DNA of 64,000 bases, taken from contig CM019065.1 of the NCBI GenBank assembly GCA_009667805.1, positions 150,634,101 to 150,698,100 on the forward strand, written 5' to 3'. Both the position numbers and the translations under genes were made by a program. Below are positions 3,006-58,285 of the stretch, one piece after another. How positions within the stretch are numbered: the stretch's first letter is position 1; every line of letters begins with the position of its first letter. The stretch comes from Leptobrachium leishanense (lineage: Eukaryota; Chordata; Amphibia; Anura; Megophryidae). The notes under the pieces were generated by a model that did not search any database, was not told the DNA's origin, and was given only the letters and a program-made list of their open reading frames with translations.

Positions 3006-4193
3006 GGATTATACTTACCCAGACCTCCTCCCGCATGTTCCTCCGTGCTCCTGCACGCTGCCGCCGGCTTCTTCTGATGTGAAGACTGTGACGCGATCAC
3101 GAGAGATCTCGGCAGTAGGCCGAGTCACAGCCTTCAGAAGGCTGAAGACGGCGGCTGTGCGAGAGGAGCAGACAGGAAACGCTCCGGGAACCCGGGCCAA
3201 TCGAGGGAGCTGCTAGCGGAATGCGGGTTAATGCATTCTGCTAGCAGCCCCAGCAATTAACTAAAAATCGGCCCACAGCGGGAACATGCATTCCTGCAAC
3301 GTTCACGCTACGGGAAAAGTGCGGGAACGCTGTTCCCGCATGACTGGAGCCCTGATGCCAATGGTCATGTGACAGGGAAGAGCAGGGGAGACATGTATTT
3401 TATTAGTTTGTATTTCTGTAATGACTAACAATTTAATATTGCTGAACCCAGGACATACTTGAAAACGAGAGAAATCTCAATGTATCCTTCCTGGTAAAAT
3501 ACTTTATGAATAAATAAATGTAGGTTCTCCTGCTCTCCACTAATTGACTTCGAACGGGCTGACATTTTAATACAGAGGGCTGATTTTGCAATGTCCCTCC
3601 ATGCTGCAATACCTACATGACAGCTTGAGACCGTGCCCAGCACTTGACAGAGCTGTGGAATAACATCTCAATTGATGAGATATGCCATAGATTATAAAGA
3701 TCAAGGCAACACATTTCTACCTAAATAGTTATTCCACAAAGACTGGACCTGCAGAGCACATGTTCCCTTTACCAAGCACTGATACTACCAGTAGTAACAA
3801 TCCAAAAGGCTCCACTGTGTGCCGACGTCCTTACAATCTCACAGTAACACAAAGTTCATGTGTCCTTCAGACAATATCAAGAGGAGATAGCAGATACTCA
3901 TCTTAACCCCTTAGTCCCCCCCAAATAAACACATTATGTGAAACAATGGGGATTTAGTTACAAAATATGATCATACATTGCCTGAGCCTACCACAACACC
4001 AATGTACCTCATCACAGGACGTCCTATACTGAAGTGGAATCAGGCTGGAAACTGGCCGCCATTATAAGACAGGCGGTCATCTTGTTCAGAATAATGGTTC
4101 ACTTGAACAAAACTAGGTAGGTTTTAGCTGAAACTAGAATGAAGCATACATAGAAATTTAGGAATGTGTTAGATTAGCAGAAAAGCAATTAAA
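3006..4193. other. Non-coding stretch up to the ribozyme element
   Basis: The first 400 bases are GC-rich with small hairpins (for example around 3205-3245, where GCTAGC-containing arms pair). A SINE/LINE tail fragment lies at 3447-3520. The last part, from about 4030 (TGAAGTGGAATCAGGCTGG), may be the start of the retroviral LTR interrupted at 4194; I could not confirm an LTR start because no second LTR is present. No gene is seen. Confidence 0.45.
3447..3520 (+). repeat. SINE-type 3' tail fragment
   Basis: Carries the shared string CCAGGACATACTTGAAAACG, then TCAATGTATCCTTCCTGGTA and an AATAAATAAA end. The same tail ends the tRNA-headed SINEs at 20290 and 48873 and recurs at 29716, 40142 and 63115. 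Confidence 0.7.
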
Positions 4194-4405
4194 GTGAGAA
4201 GCAAGGGGGGGTGTTTGTGAGGGTCCTGAAAACGAGCAACAGCACAATGGCCTGCTCTACGGTGGGTGCCCGCTCAGGTCTCACAAACAAGGTTTTAGCT
4301 TGCTTGTGCCATTACAGGGATGAATTTTCCATATGCAAATCAGCCTGCTCTCACCCAGAAAGGGTGGCCAGTGCTGACTGCCAAGGACGTCATCCCTGCA
4401 CGAGA

Positions 4406-4471
4406 GGTGCAGCAACCCCCGACGATCGTTTCGGCCTTCTTGGGCCTCGTCAGGAGGGTATAGCTGACACC
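4406..4471 (-). ncRNA. Type I hammerhead ribozyme, copy 1
   Basis: On the minus strand this is the same 66-nt sequence as the copy at 4955-5020. It has the core CTGACGA, a 4-bp stem II with loop CAAGAA, GAAA, a 2-bp stem III with tetraloop GATC, and the cleavage triplet GTC. Stem I is ACCCTC with GGGGGT plus an outer CAGC/GCTG helix. Cleavage is predicted between 4421 and 4420 on the minus-strand transcript. The very short stem III suggests activity mainly as a dimer. Confidence 0.85.
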
Positions 4472-4634
4472 CCTCTAGGCACATCAAGCAAGGGGTCCAC
4501 GTCTGGATGACCCTTTACAATTATAGTGAGAAGCAAGGGGGGGCGTTTGTGAGGGTCCTGAGAACGAGCAACAGCACAATGGCCTGCTCTACGGTGGGTG
4601 CCCGCTCAGGTCTCACAAACAAGGTTTTAGTTAT

Positions 4635-4679
4635 ACCCTCCTGACGAGGCCCAAGAAGGCCGAAACGATCGTCGGGGGT
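4635..4679 (+). ncRNA. Hammerhead ribozyme, copy 2 (outer stem lost)
   Basis: The core CTGACGA (4641-4647), stem II, GAAA, stem III and the GTC cleavage triplet (4671-4673) are all intact, as is the inner 6-bp stem I. The junction with the inverted 101-bp partial unit lies at 4630/4631, so the outer CAGC strand of stem I is missing and the stem I / loop II tertiary contact may be weakened. Predicted cleavage is after 4673. Confidence 0.75.
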
Positions 4680-4954
4680 TGCTGCACCTCTCGTGCAGGG
4701 ATGACGTCCTTGGCAGTCAGCACTGGCCACCCTTTCTGGGTGAGAGCAGGCTGATTTGCATATGGAAAATTCATCCCTGTAATGGCACAAGCAAGCTAAA
4801 ACCTTGTTTGTGAGACCTGAGCGGGCACCCACTGTAGAGCAGGCCATTGTGGTGTTGCTCGTTCTCAGGACCCTCACAAACACCCCCCCTTGCTTCTCAC
4901 TATAATTGTAAAGGGTCATCCAGACGTGGACCCCTTGCTTGATCTGCCTAGAGG

Positions 4955-5020
4955 GGTGTCAGCTATACCCTCCTGACGAGGCCCAAGAAGGCCGAAACGA
5001 TCGTCGGGGGTTGCTGCACC
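4955..5020 (+). ncRNA. Type I hammerhead ribozyme, copy 3 (complete)
   Basis: Stem I inner strand 4967-4972 (ACCCTC) pairs with 5006-5011 (GGGGGT, one G-U). Core C3-A9 is 4973-4979 (CTGACGA). Stem II is 4980-4983 with 4990-4993, loop CAAGAA. GAAA follows at 4994-4997. Stem III is A4997-C4998 with G5003-T5004 around tetraloop GATC. H17 is C5005. Outer stem I: CAGC 4960-4963 with GCTG 5013-5016, and GGTG 4955-4958 with CACC 5017-5020. The internal loop in stem I is placed where natural hammerheads make their loop-loop contact. Every invariant core base is present. Confidence 0.9.
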
Positions 5021-5572
5021 TCTCGTGCAGGGATGACGTCCTTGGCAGTCAGCACTGGCCACCCTTTCTGGGTGAGAGCAGGCTGATTTGCATATGAAAA
5101 ATTCATCCCTGTAATGGCACAAGCAAGCTAAAACCTTGTTTGTGAGACCTGAGCGGGCACCCACCGTAGAGCAGGCCATTGTGCTGTTGCTCGTTCTCAG
5201 GACCCTCACAAACACACCCCCCCTTGCTTCTCGAAAAGCAATTAAAACCTTGAGAAAGATCTTGGCTGTTCCTGGCACGAAGGGACAGAATGAGGAATGG
5301 ATACACCAAGGTCATAGAGGCCCGCTGAGAGACAAAGGGAAGCATAGAAGATAGCCGCAACAAATAAGTACAGGCGTTAGGGAGGTGAGCATAGCCCGGA
5401 CTGAATGTAAGAACTAATCATGATCTGTCGAAACTAACATGAAGTTTGCCAATTTACAGCCAATTTAATGGAATGTCTTTGTATTAGACTAAGGGAGGTA
5501 TTAACCCATGTGGGGTGGGATAGTGTCACAGGGAGGTGGGCTAATTGGGATGTACCTAATTATGTATTCAGG

Positions 5573-5579
5573 TATAAGA
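5573..5579 (+). promoter_or_regulatory. LTR TATA box
   Basis: TATAAGA sits 77 bases before the AATAAA of the same LTR, the usual spacing for a retroviral U3/R boundary. A TGACGTCA palindrome (CRE-like) occurs at 5641-5648, but it lies downstream of the TATA box and may be chance. Confidence 0.6.
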
Positions 5580-5649
5580 CCCCTTGTCGGGGGGAACTCG
5601 GGGCTCAGTCTTTGCGATTCATTCCTGTCTGAGCATTCTGTGACGTCAC

Positions 5650-5655
5650 AATAAA
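5650..5655 (+). promoter_or_regulatory. LTR polyadenylation signal
   Basis: AATAAA directly after the TGACGTCA palindrome, within the presumed R region. Its position relative to the TATA box and primer-binding site supports the LTR reading. Confidence 0.6.
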
Positions 5656-5751
5656 GTTTGCCTTTCCTGAAGAGACTCGTGTCCAGACAATCCTTGCTCG
5701 TGTCCGGTCCGGCCTCGTCCTGAGTGAACCAAGTGGATTCCGGTAACATTT

Positions 5752-5769
5752 CTGGGGGCTCGATAGCCG
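5752..5769 (+). other. Primer-binding-like site
   Basis: TGGGGGCTCG starts three bases after the presumed LTR terminus (CA at 5747-5748). TGGGGGCTCG is the beginning of the tRNA-Pro-type primer-binding site of many gammaretroviruses. The following bases (ATAGCCGGGAT) diverge from the usual continuation by a short insertion, so priming by a particular tRNA is inference. Confidence 0.6.
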
Positions 5770-6850
5770 GGATACGAGGCCCTTTGCCGGCACGGCAACG
5801 ACTGCTGGACACTGTAGCGGTTGACTGCAGGTGCGAGTAATCCCGCTGGTTGGGCGTCCGTTGAAGGTGAGCTGACATCTGCAGGCGCCAAGCAGGATTT
5901 CCTGTTCAGTGGACCTCATCTCGTCCCAAACGGACCCCCGGCCCGGGAAGCTGGGACACCACCGAGTCCGAGGAAACAGCGAACAGCGCGGCGATAGGTA
6001 AAGTGTCTTCTATGTTTGTATGTCTAATGGAAATACCGGTATAAAGGGAAACGTCCGGCCATAGTCGGATAAGGAGACCCGCGGCCACGGTCTCGTTGAC
6101 ATACCGAACCCGCGCCAAAGGCACAGACAAGCAAAGGAGCCAGAGTGGCTAGCGCGTGTGTCTGGACCCGGGGGATCGGATGTTAACTAAAGGATAGAGT
6201 CTGTATGTGAGGGAGAAGGGAGCCACGTGGAGTTGCATAGTCATAGTCAGTGTTTGTAAATAAAGCTTCTACATGTGTACAACAGGAAAGAAGGAGAGAT
6301 TTCTGTGACTGGGCTGAGAGCCCTGAGTCAGTGCTAGTGTGTACGTCGGGTAGTGAAGAGGGCCCATTGGGACCAGCGGTAGCTGCAGAGGAAGTGGTGC
6401 CGGGTGGGTAGATTACCCATAGGCAAATTGGAATTGCAGACGGAAGTGTAGTTATAGAACGGGGTGCACATAGTCACAAGCAGTCAAGAGTTAGAGTTCA
6501 ATTAACGGGGTATAAGGAGCCAAAAGGAGGGATGGTGTGCCCTCGGCTAGTAGAAAGAGTTGAATTGTTTATGTATTGTTTTGTGCTGAAAGAATCTGGT
6601 ACAGTATGGGTTGTGAATGATTGCTGAGAGTGCTGTGAGTGAGCGCCTACTCGCCTAGCGAGAAAGCAAACTTAAGAGTGGACTCCCAAGGTACGTTTCC
6701 GGCTCAGGCGACAGCAGTCCGGCTACTAATGGAAGAAGCGAATCCGATATATATGAATTGTTGACTGAAGTACCAGACAGTAAATTTCAAGTGTTTTTGC
6801 TAAAAAGTAATATCTGTATTGTAAAAAGGTTACTGCCTTTAAGAGTAACA
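5770..6850 (+). other. Retroviral leader / packaging region
   Basis: About 1.1 kb between the primer-binding-like site and the first gag methionine. I see no gene and no second LTR here. Its position suggests the untranslated leader. Confidence 0.45.
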
Positions 6851-7930: not shown

Positions 7931-8192
7931 GGGTTGAGGGACCCAGATGCCGGCAGCGCGGGAGCGCCTGCCCGATCTTGAACAGTCCGTCCTGTGAAGT
8001 GGATGCGGCTGTGTGCGTGCGCAGCCGGTCACGTGGTCCGGGTAATCAGGTGGTACAGAGACTCAGTACCACCTGATTAGCCGGACCACGTGACCGGCTG
8101 CGCACGCACACAGCCGCATCCACTTCACAGGACGGACTGTTCAAGACCGGGCAGGCGCTCCCGCGCTGCCCGGCATCTGGGTCCCTCAACCC
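7931..8192. repeat. Long hairpin, ~126-bp arms
   Basis: Arms 7931-8056 and 8066-8192 are near-perfect reverse complements (for example GTCACGTGGTCCGG and CCGGACCACGTGAC) around a 9-base loop AGAGACTCA. It is GC-rich and CpG-rich, and would form a strong snap-back if transcribed. Confidence 0.9.
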
Positions 8193-13199: not shown

Positions 13200-13546
13200 G
13201 ACGTTCAGAGTTGATTCCTGGAGTTTCGGGACTGGAGGAAGGAACTGCAAAACTGCAAGGCCCACTTTTTACTCTGGTAAACTCACGTCTATATCATGCT
13301 TTCTCTCACGCTTCTGCTCTTTACTTCTACCTTTCTCCTTAAATGGAACTCCTGCCCCTCTACCACCGACCCCTACACTATCTGCATCTCTCCCTCCCTC
13401 CTCTCGTCCCACATGATGGCCTCGCATGAGCTCCTTTGTTTCCTCAGAACATGGTCTCCCTCTAACTCTCGTGCTGCCAATCACTCCCACTCCCAAAATC
13501 CCATTCCCACCTTCTCTTTCTCACCCTCCTGCTGTTACTCTATTCA

Positions 13547-14443
13547 GGTGACATATCCCCTAACCCTGGCCCCACAACACATCCAATACTTCCCTCTCAT
13601 CCTATCTCCATCGCACATAAATCACCTCCCTGCAAGCCCAGCAACCTCATTCCCATAATCCCTCAGCGCCTGTCCTCTTTCTCCTGCGCCCTCTGGAACG
13701 CTCGCTCTGTGTGCAACAAACTCACAGCCGTCCATGACCTCTTCCTTTCAAACTCCTTCAACCTCCTAGCTTTAACTGAAACCTGGCTAACTCCCTCTGA
13801 CACGGCCTCCGTTGCTGCTCTCTCACATGGAGGTCTACACTTGAGCCATACCCCCAGACCGGGTGAGAGAAATGGTGGCGGGGTCGGACTCCTGCTCTCT
13901 CCCACCTGCACCTACCAGCATCTCCCTCCACCCCCATCCCTCTCCTTCTCGACACACTGCATCCGCCTGTTCTCTCCTCTGGCTCTCAGGGTGGCAGTCA
14001 TCTACCGCCCACCGGGACCAACCTCCCAGTTCTTTGACCACTTTGCTACCTGGCTTTCTCACTTCCTGTCTTCTAATCTTCCATGCCTAATTCTCGGGGA
14101 CTTCAACATTCCCATTGACGATCCTTCCGCTCCTGCTGCCTCCAAACTTCTTTCACTCACGTCCTCCCTTGGACTCACACAATCCTCCCTCCTCCCTACC
14201 CACCACGATGGTCACGTTATTGACCTGGTCTTTTCCAACCTCTGCTCCATTTCTGAGTTCAAATGTCGCCCTTTCCCCATCTCTGACCACCACCTTCTCT
14301 CTTTCAACCTATCTGGACTTCCTAAACACCCTGCTCCCCCACCCCGCACACACACTCGCAGAAATCTACATGCTGTGGACCCCCATCAATTCTCCAACCT
14401 ACTTCACCACCTCCCTCATACCTCATCCTTCACCTGCCACTAA
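13547..14443 (+). pseudogene. L2 endonuclease domain
   Basis: The frame begins with GDISPNPGP, a 2A-like motif commonly found just before the L2 endonuclease. It then gives ALWNARSVCNK, LLALTETWLTP, NGGGVGLLLS, VAVIYRPPGP, LILGDFNIPIDD and PISDHHLLSFNL. These are the conserved Asn, Glu, Tyr, Asp-x-Asn and Ser-Asp-His motifs of APE-type nucleases, which nick target DNA for reverse transcription. The frame stops at 14443 where a frameshift separates it from the linker. Confidence 0.85.
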
Positions 14444-14481
14444 TCACTACAACACTATGCTTATCTCTGCTCTAGACACTC

Positions 14482-16465
14482 TTGCTCCTCTTCGACTCTA
14501 AGGCCCCACGCTGCCAGCTTCAGCCCTGGCACACCCTCCAGACTCGCTACCTGCAAAGATGCTCCCGCACCGCAGAGCGTGCCTGGAGGAAATCCCACTC
14601 TGAAGCTGATTTTGTTCACTTCAAGTTTATTCTCCGGTCATACACCTCTGCCCTCCACTTGGCCAAACAATCCTTCTCATCTCTTATATCTACGCTGTCC
14701 TCCAACCCTAAACGGCTCCGGTCCACCTTCAACACCCTCCTCTACCCACCTGCACCTCCCCCCTCAGCTGCCTTCAGCGCTCAAGACCTGGCAGACTACT
14801 TCCTCAGTAAAACTCTATCAGAAGCAACATCCAAACACAAGATAGTTATCTGCCACCTCCACTCCCACAGGTCCCCTCTGCCACCCTCTGCCGCTTCCTC
14901 CCAGCCACTGAGGAGGAAGTCAATTCCTTATTGTCCTCTTCACATCTCACCACGTGCCCGCTCTACCCCATTCCCTCACATCTAATTCCTCCCCTCTCCT
15001 CCTCCCTCACCCCTGCTCTCACACACACATCTTCAACCTATCTCTCTCCACTGGCTCCTTTCCATCCGCCTTCAAACACGCGCTAGTTACCCCTTTACTA
15101 AAGAAACTATCCCTAGACCCCAACTCTCCATCCAACTACCGCCCTGTATCCCTGCTTCCCTTCACATCAAAGCGCTTAGAAAAACTAGTCTTCAACCGCC
15201 TCTCCCTCTTCCTGTCCTCCAATTCCCTACTTGACCCCCTGCAATCTGGCTTCCGTCCCCTACACTCAACTGAAACTGCCCTCACCAAAGTCACCAACGA
15301 CCTCCTAACTGCTAAAAAACACGGCCACTATTCTATTCTCATCCTGCTTGACCTCTCGGCTGCTTTTGACACTGTTGACCACCCCCTCCTTCTACAGACC
15401 CTCAACTCTCTGGGTCTCGGTGACACTGCACTTGCTTGGGTTGACTCCTATTTATCCAACAGGTCCTTCTGTGTGTCCTTTGCTGGTAACTCCTCCTCTT
15501 CATTGCCTCTATCTGTTGGTGTACCTCAAGGCTCTGTCCTTGGTCCTCTGCTCTTTTCCATCTACACCTCCTCCCTGGGCAAAATCATCAACAGCTTTGG
15601 CTTTAATTACCACCTCTACGCTGATGACACTCAGATCTACCTCTCTACCCCTGATCTCTCTCCCCCTGTCCTTTCCAAAGTCAGTGACTGTTTATCTGGC
15701 ATCTCCTCCTGGATGGCCTCCCACCACCTAAAGATCAACATGTCAAAGACTGAGCTCCTACTTATTCCTCCCTCCAATGCCTCCCCACCTCCTGACTTCT
15801 CTATCACGGTGGAGGTATCACCATCTCCCCATCAAACCAAGTTCGCTGTCTTGGAGTTACACTTGACTCTGCTCTTTCCTTCATCCCCCACATCCAGTCT
15901 CTTTCCTCCTCCTGCCGATACCAACTGCGTAATATTTCCAGAATTCGGCCATTTCTTACCGCTGTCACCACAAAACAACTCATACACGCCCTGGTAATCT
16001 CCCGACTCGACTATTGCAATAATCTCTTATCTGGCCTCCCTCTGTCCCGCCTCTCCCCCCTACAATCCATCCTGAACGCCTCCGCCAGGCTAATTCACCT
16101 CACCCGCCGCTCTGTCTCTGCCGCTCCCCTCTGCGAGTCCCTTCACTGGCTCCCCATCCACTGCAGAATTAAGTTCAAAATCCTTATCCTTACCTACAAA
16201 ACCCTCACTAACTCAGCACCCCACTACCTGTCCTCACTAATCACCAAATACACCCCAGCCCGCTCCCTAAGGTCAAACAGTGACCTGCGCCTAGCTTCTC
16301 CCCGCATCACCTCTTCCCATGATAGACTGCAGGATTTCTCACGTGCAGCCCCCACTCTCTGGAACGCTCTCCCTCGTACTGTCAGACTTTCCCCTAACTT
16401 CTCTTCCTTCAAACGCTCCCTTAAAACATTCCTATTTAGGGAAGCCTACCACCCAACTCACTGAC
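14482..16465 (+). pseudogene. L2 reverse transcriptase and C-terminal domain
   Basis: In successive frames: a linker (14482-14860), then RT from about 14954 with [71 protein letters not shown] and the catalytic [10 protein letters not shown]. After a frame change near 15820 the C-terminal part reads [42 protein letters not shown] and SFKRSLKTFLFREAY before the stop near 16465. All catalytic aspartates are present, but the frameshifts make it a pseudogene. Confidence 0.9.
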
Positions 16466-16663: not shown

Positions 16664-17368
16664 AGAATAATAATAATAAATAATAATGACTACGAACTAT
16701 TAGAACTCAATCATGATTATATCCAATGGCTCTTCCCAACCCGTTCCCAAGGCCGAAATTTCTCCTCCACTCCTCTGAACCCTCAAGAGACACGTCTTAT
16801 GATTAACACCTCAGAAGTTCAGCAAAGACTCCGCAGAGCATACAAAATGATGCTGAAATTCTTCGGCGTAAAACTAATGGGGGAGTATGGTGAAGATACA
16901 GAAGTAATTGAACGAGCAGAAAATTTCGCCTCACGTTTCGAAAACCTAAAAACCAACCCTCAAAATAATCTGAGAATTACACGAATACTGCTAAATTTGG
17001 GAGAATTGGGAGCAGAAGAATACCAAGCCCCATTGGTGAGGTTCTTCCTCAAGGAGATCCTTATCAAAAACAAACTGCCAAGAATGAAGAAAAGTGTGAA
17101 CTTTTTTATACCAGCAGTGAGAGATTCACAGGAAAGACAAGATCTGCTGTTCTTTGCTTGGCGATACTATTTCCCAAAAGAAGAATTCATCTGGGGAAAC
17201 CATGGAGAATTGGCACGATACAAAGCAAAACCAGTGGTGGCTGCACTCCTACCGGCGCCACTGAGCGAATGGACTCCTGTGTATTCAGAGAAAGAGAAGA
17301 AATGGTTATCAGAAGAACAAGGCGGATATGGAGAAGACGGATGGTTCCAGTTGAAGAATGGACAAATA

Positions 17369-17380
<12 letters not shown>
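16664..17380 (+). pseudogene. OGFR-like domain, single uninterrupted frame
   Basis: From about 16688 the frame reads DYELLELNHDYIQWLFPTRS, then RRAYKMMLKFFGVKL, NNLRITRILLNLGELG, YQAPLVRFFLKEILI and LFFAWRYYFPKEEFIWG. This is the conserved region of the opioid growth factor receptor family (OGFR/OGFRL1). About 231 codons run without a stop or intron. The left end abuts the (AAT)n tail of the L2. The right end is cut by the Tc1 at 17369, whose inverted repeat supplies the last codons and the stop. The first Met is at 16799, inside the domain. A retrocopy or a domain captured by a transposon are both possible; an exon of a real gene is less likely because neither edge has a splice site I trust. 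Confidence 0.75.
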
Positions 17381-55020: not shown

Positions 55021-55361
55021 CACGCACAAAATTTTTAAAAATGTTACAATTGTGCCATGATTTATATCAAATGAAAGCCCTATTCATTAGCTTTAAAACT
55101 ACACATATCCTATGTCCTATATCTGTAGCTATCACAGTAATCTCATAAATGACATTTGAAGCTATAGTGGCTAGTGAATTTTGGCGTTTAGACAATTTTG
55201 AAAGTTCAATATCTCAAAAATGAGTGGACAAAAATATGAAAAAAATATTTTTAAAAACCTCTCATTGTAAGTTACAAAAGTACCAATAATGAACCAAATC
55301 CATGACATCAAGTTCCAAAATAAATTTTTTATTGGTTGATTTGACACGGAATGACCCTCTA

Positions 55362-57460
55362 TAGCGCCAGCATATTCCGCAGCGCTCAACAATGGGCACG
55401 ATATAGACAGGGTTACAATACATTGAGACTGAACAACATTTTTATAAACCAGTACAGGAGGAAACGAGGGCCCTATTGCCGTGGGAATTTACACTCTAGA
55501 AGGGTTGGGGTGGAAACAGGAGAAGAGGACTGCAAGGTGAGAGTGATGGACTGGTTGGAGCAGTGGGGTGTATTAGTGAGTTGGGTGGTAGGCTTGCCTG
55601 AATAGGAATGTCTTAAGAGAGCGTTTGAAGGTGGGGAAAGTCTGACATTACAAGGGAGAGAGTGTTCCAGAGGATGGGGGAGAAGTCCTGCAGTCTATCA
55701 TGTGAAGAGGTGATGCGGGGAGAAGCTAGACGCAGGTCACTGTTTGACCTTAGGGAGCGGGCTGGGGTCTATTTGGTGATTAATGAGGACAGGTAGTGAG
55801 GAGCCGAGTTAGTGAGAGCTTTGTAGGTCAGGGTAAGGATTTTGAATTTGAGTCTCTTCACTGGCCCCCCATCCACTGCAGAATTAGAGGAGCAGCAGAG
55901 ACAGAGCGGCGGGTGAGGTGGATGAGCCTGGCAGATGCATTCAGAATGGATTGTGGGGGGGGAGGGGCTAGGTGGGAGAGAGGGAGGCCATCTAGAAGAT
56001 TATTACAATAGTCAAATCGGGAGATTACAAGGGCGTGGATGAGTTGTTTTATGGTGTCAGAGGCAAGAAATGACCTAATTCTGGAAATATCGCATAGTTT
56101 GTAGCGGCAGGAGGAGGAAAGAGACTGGATGCGTGGGATGAAGGAAAGAGCAATTGTAACTCCGAGACAGTGAACCTGGTTTGATGGGGAGATAATAATA
56201 CCATCAACCATGATAGAGAAGTCAGGCGGTGGGGAGGTAATAGTGGGAGGAATTAGTAGGAGCTCAGTCTTGGACATGTTAATCTAGAAGTGGTGAGAGG
56301 CCATCCAGGAGGAGATGCCAGATAAACAGTTGCTGACTTTGGAAAGGACAAAAGGAGAGAGATCAGGAGTGGAAAGGTAGATTTGAGTATCACCAGCATA
56401 GAGGTGGCAATTAAAGCCAAAGCTGTTAATGATTTTGCCTAGGGAGGAGGTGTAGATGGAGAAGAGCAGAAGACCTAGGACAGAGCCTTGAGGTACGTCA
56501 ACTGATAAAGGCAGTGAAGAGGAGTTACCTGCAAATGACACAGAGAAAGACCTTTTAGACAGATAAGAGATCGAGTGAGCTGAGAGTCTGTAGAAGGGAG
56601 GGGGTGACTGACAGTGTCAAAAGCAGCGGAGATGTCAAGCAGGATGAGAATAGAATAGTGGCCGTGGTTTTTAGCAATTAGGAGGTAGTTTGTGAATTTG
56701 GGGAGGGCAGTTTCAGTTGAGGGTAGGGGACGGAAGCCTGAAGCAGGGGGGTCAAATAGGAAATTAGAGGACAGGAAGAGGGAGAGGCGGTTGAAAAGTA
56801 GTTTTTCCAAGAGCTTAGAGGTTAACGAAAGCAGGGGTACAAGACGATAGCTGGATGGATCGTTGGGATTGATGGAGGGTTTCTTTAGTATAGGGGTAAC
56901 CTGTGCGTGTTTGAAGGCTAATGGAAAGGAGTTGGAGAGGGATAGGTTGAAGATGTGTTTGAGAGCAGGAGTGAGGGAGGAGGAGAGGGGAGGAATTAGA
57001 TGTGAGGGAATGGGGGTATGTAGTGATATGTGAGGAGGACAATAAGGAACTGACTTCCTCCTCAGTGGGTGGGAGGAAGCGGCAGAGGGGGCTTCTGGGA
57101 TTGGAGGTGGTGGATTACAGGTTTGTGTCAGGATGTTGCATCTGATAGTGAGAGTTTTATTTAAGAAGTAATCTGCCAGATCCTGAGCGCTAAATGGCAG
57201 ATGAGGGGGGGGGGGGGGTGCAGGTGGGTAGAGGAGAAAGTTGAAAGTGGACCAGAGTCGTTTAGGGTTGGATGACAGAGTAGATATGAGAGATGAGAAG
57301 GCGGCTTATTTGGCCAAGTGAAGGGCAGAGTTGTAGGACCACAGAAAGTATTGTAGTACAGGATGAGTATCCTTTTTCTGAAATCCAAAATGATCCATAT
57401 GAAATTTTCTTGGGCACTGAAGTTACACCAATAGTAGAAAATACCCCACCTGTCCACGTG
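55362..57460 (-). mobile_element. L2 LINE 3' part, antisense
   Basis: On the minus strand: [40 protein letters not shown], then [12 protein letters not shown] and VISRFDYCNNLLDGLPLSHL, ending in the same 3' UTR as 16540-16680. The catalytic motif reads YAGD instead of YADD. A ~36-bp segment at 55851-55886 is inverted relative to the copy at 13200-16680. Confidence 0.88.
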
Positions 57461-57583: not shown

Positions 57584-58285
57584 CAGTATTCCCCCGCATA
57601 TTCGCGGTTCGGTAATCGCGGACTCAGTCATTCGCGGATTTTGCCGCTTACCACGTGGTAGCAGCATCCCGGTGTGTCATCTATGGTTCCTTATTGAATA
57701 TTGTTCAAAGGAGCCCTCGGCAAAGAACGGAACTCCACCTCCCCAGGCTCCAACACATCAGCGCCTCCCAAACACACCCCTTTGTGCAGCCCCCTGATGT
57801 GTTAGAGCCTGGGGAGGTGGAGTTCCGATCTTTGCCGAGGGCTCCTTTGAACAATATTCAATAAGGAACCATATAGGACACAACACCCCGGCAGAGAAGC
57901 TGCTCCTGTGCGTCTCCGGGCTCACGATCATGGCCAGGGCATTCCCTTCTCTCAGCATCATTACGAGAGAGGAGATGCCGAGCCTCCTGGATCCCCGGAC
58001 CACGCTTGCAGGGGTGCACAAGAGTCTCGGCATCTCTGAACGATGCCGAGAGAGGAGAATGCCCTGGCCATGATCGTGAGCCCGGAGACGCACAGGAGCA
58101 GCTTCTCTGCCGGGGTCTAAAGGTCTGGAGATGTACAGGAGCAGCCATTCTGCCAGGAGGACGGCGGCTCCTGGGTCCTAATGCCGCATGGCTGTGCTTT
58201 TTTTTAGCACAGCCGCAATTCGCGGTTTTTCAAAATTCGCGGGGGTTGTTGGAACGTAACCCCCGCGAATTTCGGGGGATTACTG
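57584..58285. mobile_element. Tigger/pogo-like MITE with two internal hairpins
   Basis: Ends CAGTATTCCCCCGC and GGGGGATTACTG with TA on both sides. Two separate hairpins lie inside: arms 57693-57780 and 57795-57875 (GGAGCCCTCGGCAAAGA and complement), and arms 57895-57985 and 58030-58128 (GGGCTCACGATCATGGCCAG and complement). Confidence 0.8.

Follow-up and report, generated by a model that had tools for sequence, protein, structure and literature searches.

The locus considered here raises the question of how an insert with hammerhead ribozymes on both strands was assembled, and which enzyme moved it. The window (the whole stretch of 64,000 nucleotides of Leptobrachium leishanense DNA that was analysed) contains one such insert of 1,039 bp (4194-5232), bordered by a perfect 14-nt duplication. 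We consider it likely that this is a copy of a high-copy, non-coding non-LTR retrozyme of the frog and that target-primed reverse transcription from both sides, probably carried out by a Penelope-like enzyme, inserted it.

The whole insert is built of one 332-bp unit. Unit mapping and the direct repeat with a period of 332 nt (97%) resolve it into an inverted arm of 438 nt, or 1.3 units (4194-4631, minus strand, outer end ...CTTGCTTCTCAC on that strand), and a direct arm of 601 nt, or 1.8 units (4632-5232, plus strand), placed head-to-head; the stretches 4205-4630 and 4796-5221 are 98% complementary. In the arm alignment the joint falls at 4631-4632, where a short microhomology AG(C) can be seen by eye and the BLAST overlap of the arms is 8 nt. 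At the outer end, the unit site is identical within 2 nt for both arms: CTTGCTTCTC is found on both sides, with an additional AC on the left. The repeat search identified the target-site duplication, GAAAAGCAATTAAA, at 4180-4193 and 5233-5246 (14/14 identical). The claims of the sequence-only reading concerning a mobile element with inverted ends and a perfect 14-bp target duplication are borne out by the arms, the duplication and the empty sites described below. Where variable sites are seen in at least three copies within the insert, each is private to one copy.

The insert consists of the 332-bp unit alone and includes no reverse transcriptase (RT) or GIY-YIG gene; its stop-to-stop frames reach 145 aa at most. 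No tRNA-derived head was found at 4000-6000, and no further copy of the element was found within the 64-kb window (other matches had E 0.67 or worse).

Three hammerhead matches of 45 nt, identical to each other, are located at 4415-4459 (copy 1, type I, minus strand), 4635-4679 (copy 2, plus strand) and 4967-5011 (copy 3, plus strand). Each of them matches RF00163 with 40.6 bits and E 7.4e-7 (cmscan), above the gathering score of 34, in agreement with the three intact motifs proposed earlier. The cleavage positions expected in that proposal, 4673/4674 and 5005/5006, are correct as read from the sequence; on the minus strand, cleavage would be expected at 4421/4420. The outer stem and the internal loop assigned to copies 1 and 3 are present as well: the strand composed of GAGGGGUG, a bulged U and CAGC is paired with GCUGCACCUC, and the loop is UAU/U. 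Copy 2 has its outer stem cut off, the 5' strand being lost at the joint near 4631. Stem III has 4 bp without a loop in the Rfam drawing; by eye it has about 2 bp with the palindrome GAUC as its cap. When a single ribozyme is folded to minimum energy, the pairing obtained is not that of the hammerhead.

The monomer expected between the two plus-strand cleavage sites (4674-5005, plus strand; unit mapping and fold) is 332 nt long and has a GC content of 54.5%. Its circular fold of -141.6 kcal/mol (z -4.9 versus 60 dinucleotide shuffles) predicts a strongly self-paired monomer RNA. Across the genomic copies discussed below, the ribozyme core is intact in 116 of the 127 units that span it. Among the 127 units spanning the extended ribozyme, in copies about 98% alike, changes in the stems are mostly one-sided, and a both-sided change that still pairs was found in one cell only (U-G to G-U). 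The ribozyme pattern had 0 matches in viral contigs, and phage records gave no match.

The target of the insert is a high-copy LTR-like repeat (4104-5399, plus strand, flank alignment). The query for empty sites comprised 243 nt, i.e., 4104-4193 and 5247-5399 with one copy of the 14 nt kept. In all 40 scored places (the best 40 of 2,628 candidates) the joined flanks align across the joint with 94-99% identity. Since the scored places are the best matches, they establish that empty sites exist and do not give the frequency of emptiness. The sequence-only reading placed the insert in a retroviral LTR region; an LTR-type repeat is indeed the target, but it is one of many similar copies. Within the window, no second LTR copy serving as an empty site was found.

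Several other features of the window deserve mention. Retroviral-type gag, protease and RNase H frames at 6.7-12.7 kb are accompanied by an OGFr_N domain (16664-17380, 1.7e-59). The best protein match of the OGFr-type frame is from Leptobrachium leishanense (89%), and the closest Leptobrachium proteins have OGFr_N fused with RNase H or integrase-type domains; therefore, an endogenous retrovirus may have captured the host OGFr_N domain. A tandem array at 1381-2993 has copies 78-91% alike and a 570-aa stop-to-stop frame. Long near-perfect palindromes occupy 7931-8192 (97%), 57673-57882 (87%) and 57885-58116 (82%). An L1-type endonuclease/RT is found at 13466-15994, with an 81% similar copy on the other strand at 55360-57346.

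The exact 33-nt ribozyme core occurs 723 times in the genome (reversed control, 0). The search with the unit yielded 2,011 candidate places, of which the 40 best were scored; all 40 were fetched, and their arms were mapped. These copies are the best matches to one query, and hence to one subfamily, rather than a random sample. Among these best 40 of 2,011, 22 copies are minus-then-plus, 9 plus only and 8 minus only; one consists of three same-strand pieces, and none is plus-then-minus (tail-to-tail). The arrangement of one minus-strand and two plus-strand ribozymes, which had been taken for a singular one, can thus be rejected as unique: the head-to-head layout is common in the genome (22 of the 40 fetched copies), and the number of ribozymes per insertion is set by the arm lengths of the 332-bp tandem unit. 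Arm length in the 22 two-armed copies varies from 0.11 to 6.93 units. Opposite-strand neighbours were also identified by eye among the exact-pattern matches, where some of them belong to the 40 copies. Every such pair has the minus-strand member first, with 6 of 6 pairs within the first 100 of the 723 ribozyme cores (one contig), 3 of 3 within the first 100 of the 109 A-type junctions, and 5 of 5 within all 79 B-type junctions; the single mixed neighbour pair found has the same order.

The duplication score was defined as the length minus three per mismatch, with a threshold of at least 9. It is reached in 31 of the 40 copies (19 of the 22 two-armed ones) versus 1 of 190 mismatched-flank controls; a convincing duplication is absent in 9 of the 40. 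The duplications are 9-23 nt long, 14 being the most frequent length, and are richer in AT than the flanks (75% vs 57%). Their divergence amounts to 7 of 444 bases, which is likely an underestimate because it was taken from scored matches. A second sample, based on the unit of another subfamily, had 13-17-nt duplications in 3 of 4 complete loci.

These data bear on the possibility that we deal with an array of satellite type which recombination or replication slippage has rearranged, with no retrotransposition involved. Tandem units would agree with it, as would the unit-private mutations (144 of the 174 within-arm variants are singletons) and the copy L076 with its three similar blocks about 1.35 kb apart. 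Dispersed single insertions with 9-23-nt duplications in 31 of the 40 copies would not, and neither would the existence of empty sites; on the duplications and the empty sites together we reject an array without transposition, and we regard this origin as highly improbable. As for L076 itself, it has three direct arms at the above spacing, two of which share downstream letters; the pattern looks like a higher-order duplication that took in an insertion together with its flank.

The arm ends indicate where reverse transcription would start. In 18 of the 22 two-armed copies, the outer ends of both arms fall within unit phase 205-240; the four exceptions (L033, L036, L042 and L070) deviate on one side each. 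The inner ends in these 22 copies are scattered over the unit, and 15 of them have an arm overlap of 1 nt or more at the joint. Of the 50 ends defined by a duplication, 46 are 0-11 nt past the TTG of an AC-rich hairpin loop. The internal copy of this hairpin (4869-4919, plus strand; fold and mapped ends) would hold the RT start sites in its loop; the fold has -9.3 kcal/mol (z -2.39), and 4 of 200 shuffles are equally stable. Microhomology between template and target has a mean run of 1.56 vs 0.60 in 5,000 permutations (P 2e-4); 43 of the 50 ends were usable, with 1.52 on the left and 1.59 on the right. We believe that the same fixed outer ends, the two-sided microhomology and the 14-nt duplication are best explained by two-strand priming at one RNA site.

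A twin priming of the LINE type could be considered instead: an L1-like enzyme would begin at the 3' end of an RNA and then, with the second target strand, start again inside that RNA, which results in a 5' inversion. L1-type endonuclease and RT sequences do occur in the window. Such a process agrees with duplications near 14 nt and with microhomology where the second priming takes place, and the target CAATTAAA matches CAATTATA of the unit at 7 of 8 positions, a match equalled by 52 of the 63,992 window 8-mers. However, varied internal second starts are to be expected from twin priming, whereas here both outer ends map to one loop in 18 of 22 copies; in addition, the copy ends inspected show neither poly(A) nor a 3'-end signature. 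We find this explanation quite unlikely, and the composition of the arms, considered below, limits it further.

The templates were analysed using 18 arms with at least three near-full units. Eight variants are fixed throughout an arm, versus a permutation mean of 0.07 and a maximum of 1; 22 are common to part of an arm, and the rest are the above 144 private to one unit. The divergence is 1.60% within an arm, 1.85% between insertions and 2.34% between the two arms of one insertion. According to these counts, the units of one arm are related, though their likeness exceeds that of units in general only by a modest amount. For neighbouring units within an arm the rank is 0.28-0.34, not near 0, and rolling round a single circle is weakly supported. 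In the single six-unit arm of L055, successive units alternate in the length of a C-run and in a neighbouring indel, a pattern that a circular template of two units might have left.

The two arms of an insertion can belong to different subfamilies. In L045, three units with CTGTTG stand against seven with CATTGC; the arms of L034, L061 and L062 likewise differ (at least two concordant units each), as do those of L075 (3 vs 2 units). The arms agree in subfamily in L031 (the window's own copy), L059 and L078. One RNA therefore cannot have made both arms in the five former insertions, and twin priming exclusively from one RNA is ruled out by them. It is for these five insertions only that we claim arms of mixed templates, as a minimum and as judged from the subfamily letters. 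In 17 of 19 two-armed copies, all selected by one subfamily, the two arms have terminal ends of different classes, and a minor arm does not resemble its own major arm more than it does others (mean rank 0.478, n=19); among the exact junctions, at least 8 same-type pairs versus 1 mixed pair were counted by eye. In the minor arms of L064 and L067, the terminal unit end differs in class from the internal unit, which looks like a template switch during reverse transcription.

It is tempting to propose that a dimeric Penelope-type enzyme loads two RNAs, one per cut strand, and runs round circular templates; a single insertion could then carry two retrozyme RNAs, of which the mixed-subfamily arms would be a direct trace. 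We hold this proposal as tentative and give it somewhat less than an even chance.

For the insertion in general, we presume the following course. Tandem 332-nt units would be transcribed, and the hammerheads would cut the RNA into monomers, probably as dimers in view of the weak, palindromic helix III; in the accessible part of PMC7229834, single motifs of the axolotl HHR_Amex1 cleave poorly and dimers cleave well. Monomers, multimers or their putative circles would serve as templates. Within an AT-rich site, an endonuclease with a reverse transcriptase would make two cuts, one per strand and about 14 nt from each other; the 3' ends so produced would both prime in the same AC-rich template loop, aided by a microhomology of a few bases. 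Each cDNA would travel part-way or several times round the unit. Once joined head-to-head, the two cDNAs would form one inverted and one direct arm that share their outer end, flanked by the 14-nt duplication.

The enzyme would most likely come from a Penelope-like element (PLE). The family is present in the genome with its layout, fixed outer ends, duplications, empty sites and microhomology, and it is from this insertion footprint that we infer the link to PLEs. The purified PLE protein PAc of a lizard (Anolis) acts on both strands, cutting and extending them; it initiates within the RNA, in an AC-rich stem-loop, prefers AT-rich DNA and treats the strands alike; its initiation site is not homologous to the target (PMC11167929). 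PLEs were proposed as retrozyme movers from co-occurrence and shared ribozymes (PMC7229834, accessible part). In the frog genome, at least 49 GIY-YIG matches were found (150 scored of 1,534 candidates). The locus L071 has an 800-aa frame with GIY-YIG at the C-terminus; Pfam reports GIY-YIG only, and the RT was read by eye. Neither L071 nor another PLE locus, L072, has an Rfam hammerhead, and their comparison with the unit gave nothing significant (best E 1.4 and 0.10); a PLE with this unit or its ends was not found in the two PLE loci examined. Because these loci share neither ribozyme nor unit with the insert, the enzyme is proposed by inference.

A closer relation to PLEs would exist if the insert were an ORF-less copy of an autonomous PLE, the 332-bp unit being the pseudo-LTR and the inverted-direct-direct arrangement being retained minus the coding part. 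The typical Penelope structure, as given in the accessible part of PMC3846280, includes one inverted and two direct pseudo-LTRs with 8-10-bp duplications; the layout of the insert matches it, and PLE-type genes are present in the genome. Still, the ribozyme of the insert has a helix III with a palindromic tetraloop, an outer stem and an internal loop, whereas PLE hammerheads are minimal, without helix III or loop-loop contacts, according to the accessible part of PMC7761336. The arms of the parsed 40 copies are the unit sequence alone with no coding sequence joined, and the two PLE loci examined are without this hammerhead or unit. We therefore judge such a derivation unlikely and retain a retrozyme moved by a PLE-type enzyme as the preferred explanation.

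Penelope elements, retrozymes and newt satellite 2, to which the sequence-only reading pointed, proved to be the right set for comparison. In the accessible part of PMC7229834, metazoan non-LTR retrozymes (axolotl Rtz_331 with HHR_Amex1; newt satellite 2) have, like the frog insert, a type I hammerhead with a weak helix III and a palindromic tetraloop, tandem units of about 330 bp, a strongly self-paired monomer RNA (predicted in the frog), no LTR, PBS or coding capacity noted, and duplications longer than 4 bp (here in 31 of 40 copies, commonest 14 nt). The likeness to the newt satellite 2 and axolotl units concerns unit length and ribozyme type. The 332-bp period falls within the 150-450 bp or so of retrozyme tandem units. 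The hammerhead appears to be of the canonical type I (all 3 motifs match RF00163, and 2 also have the outer stem and internal loop). The GC content of 54.5% is higher than the less than 50% given for animal repeats in the accessible part of PMC7229834, where it is a descriptive and not a mechanistic feature. Another difference is that this part of the source mentions no metazoan retrozyme insertions with two head-to-head arms and a fixed internal end; in the literature searched, no report of the head-to-head layout for retrozymes was found.

PLEs (Pen2a of Adineta vaga, PMC3846280, accessible part; PAc of Anolis, PMC11167929) resemble the insert in their head-to-head inverted and direct repeats, short target duplications, AT-rich targets, a hammerhead near the repeat, and, as suggested in the frog by the mapped ends, use of both strands with an internal start in an AC-rich stem-loop. 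They differ in having their own RT/GIY-YIG gene, which the frog insert lacks, and a minimal hammerhead without helix III, where the frog ribozyme has a helix III with the GAUC cap; moreover, the frog start sites share microhomology with the target. Plant LTR retrozymes, as presented in the accessible part of PMC7229834, are similarly non-autonomous and hammerhead-bounded, with a circular RNA intermediate proposed; they differ in type III hammerheads, LTRs with PBS and PPT, and 4-bp duplications. The frog insert represents a new retrozyme family with an insertion layout already known for PLEs.

With a genome-wide footprint of two-sided priming at one internal RNA site, the PLE proposal for the insertion of animal retrozymes would become a mechanism open to testing, and the activity of PAc on both strands in vitro would have its in vivo parallel. 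Sequence alone suffices to check two-template insertion and rolling reverse transcription in the mixed-arm copies. The double-ended insertion gives a hint of the enzyme behind the mobility of these elements, a class that is poorly understood.
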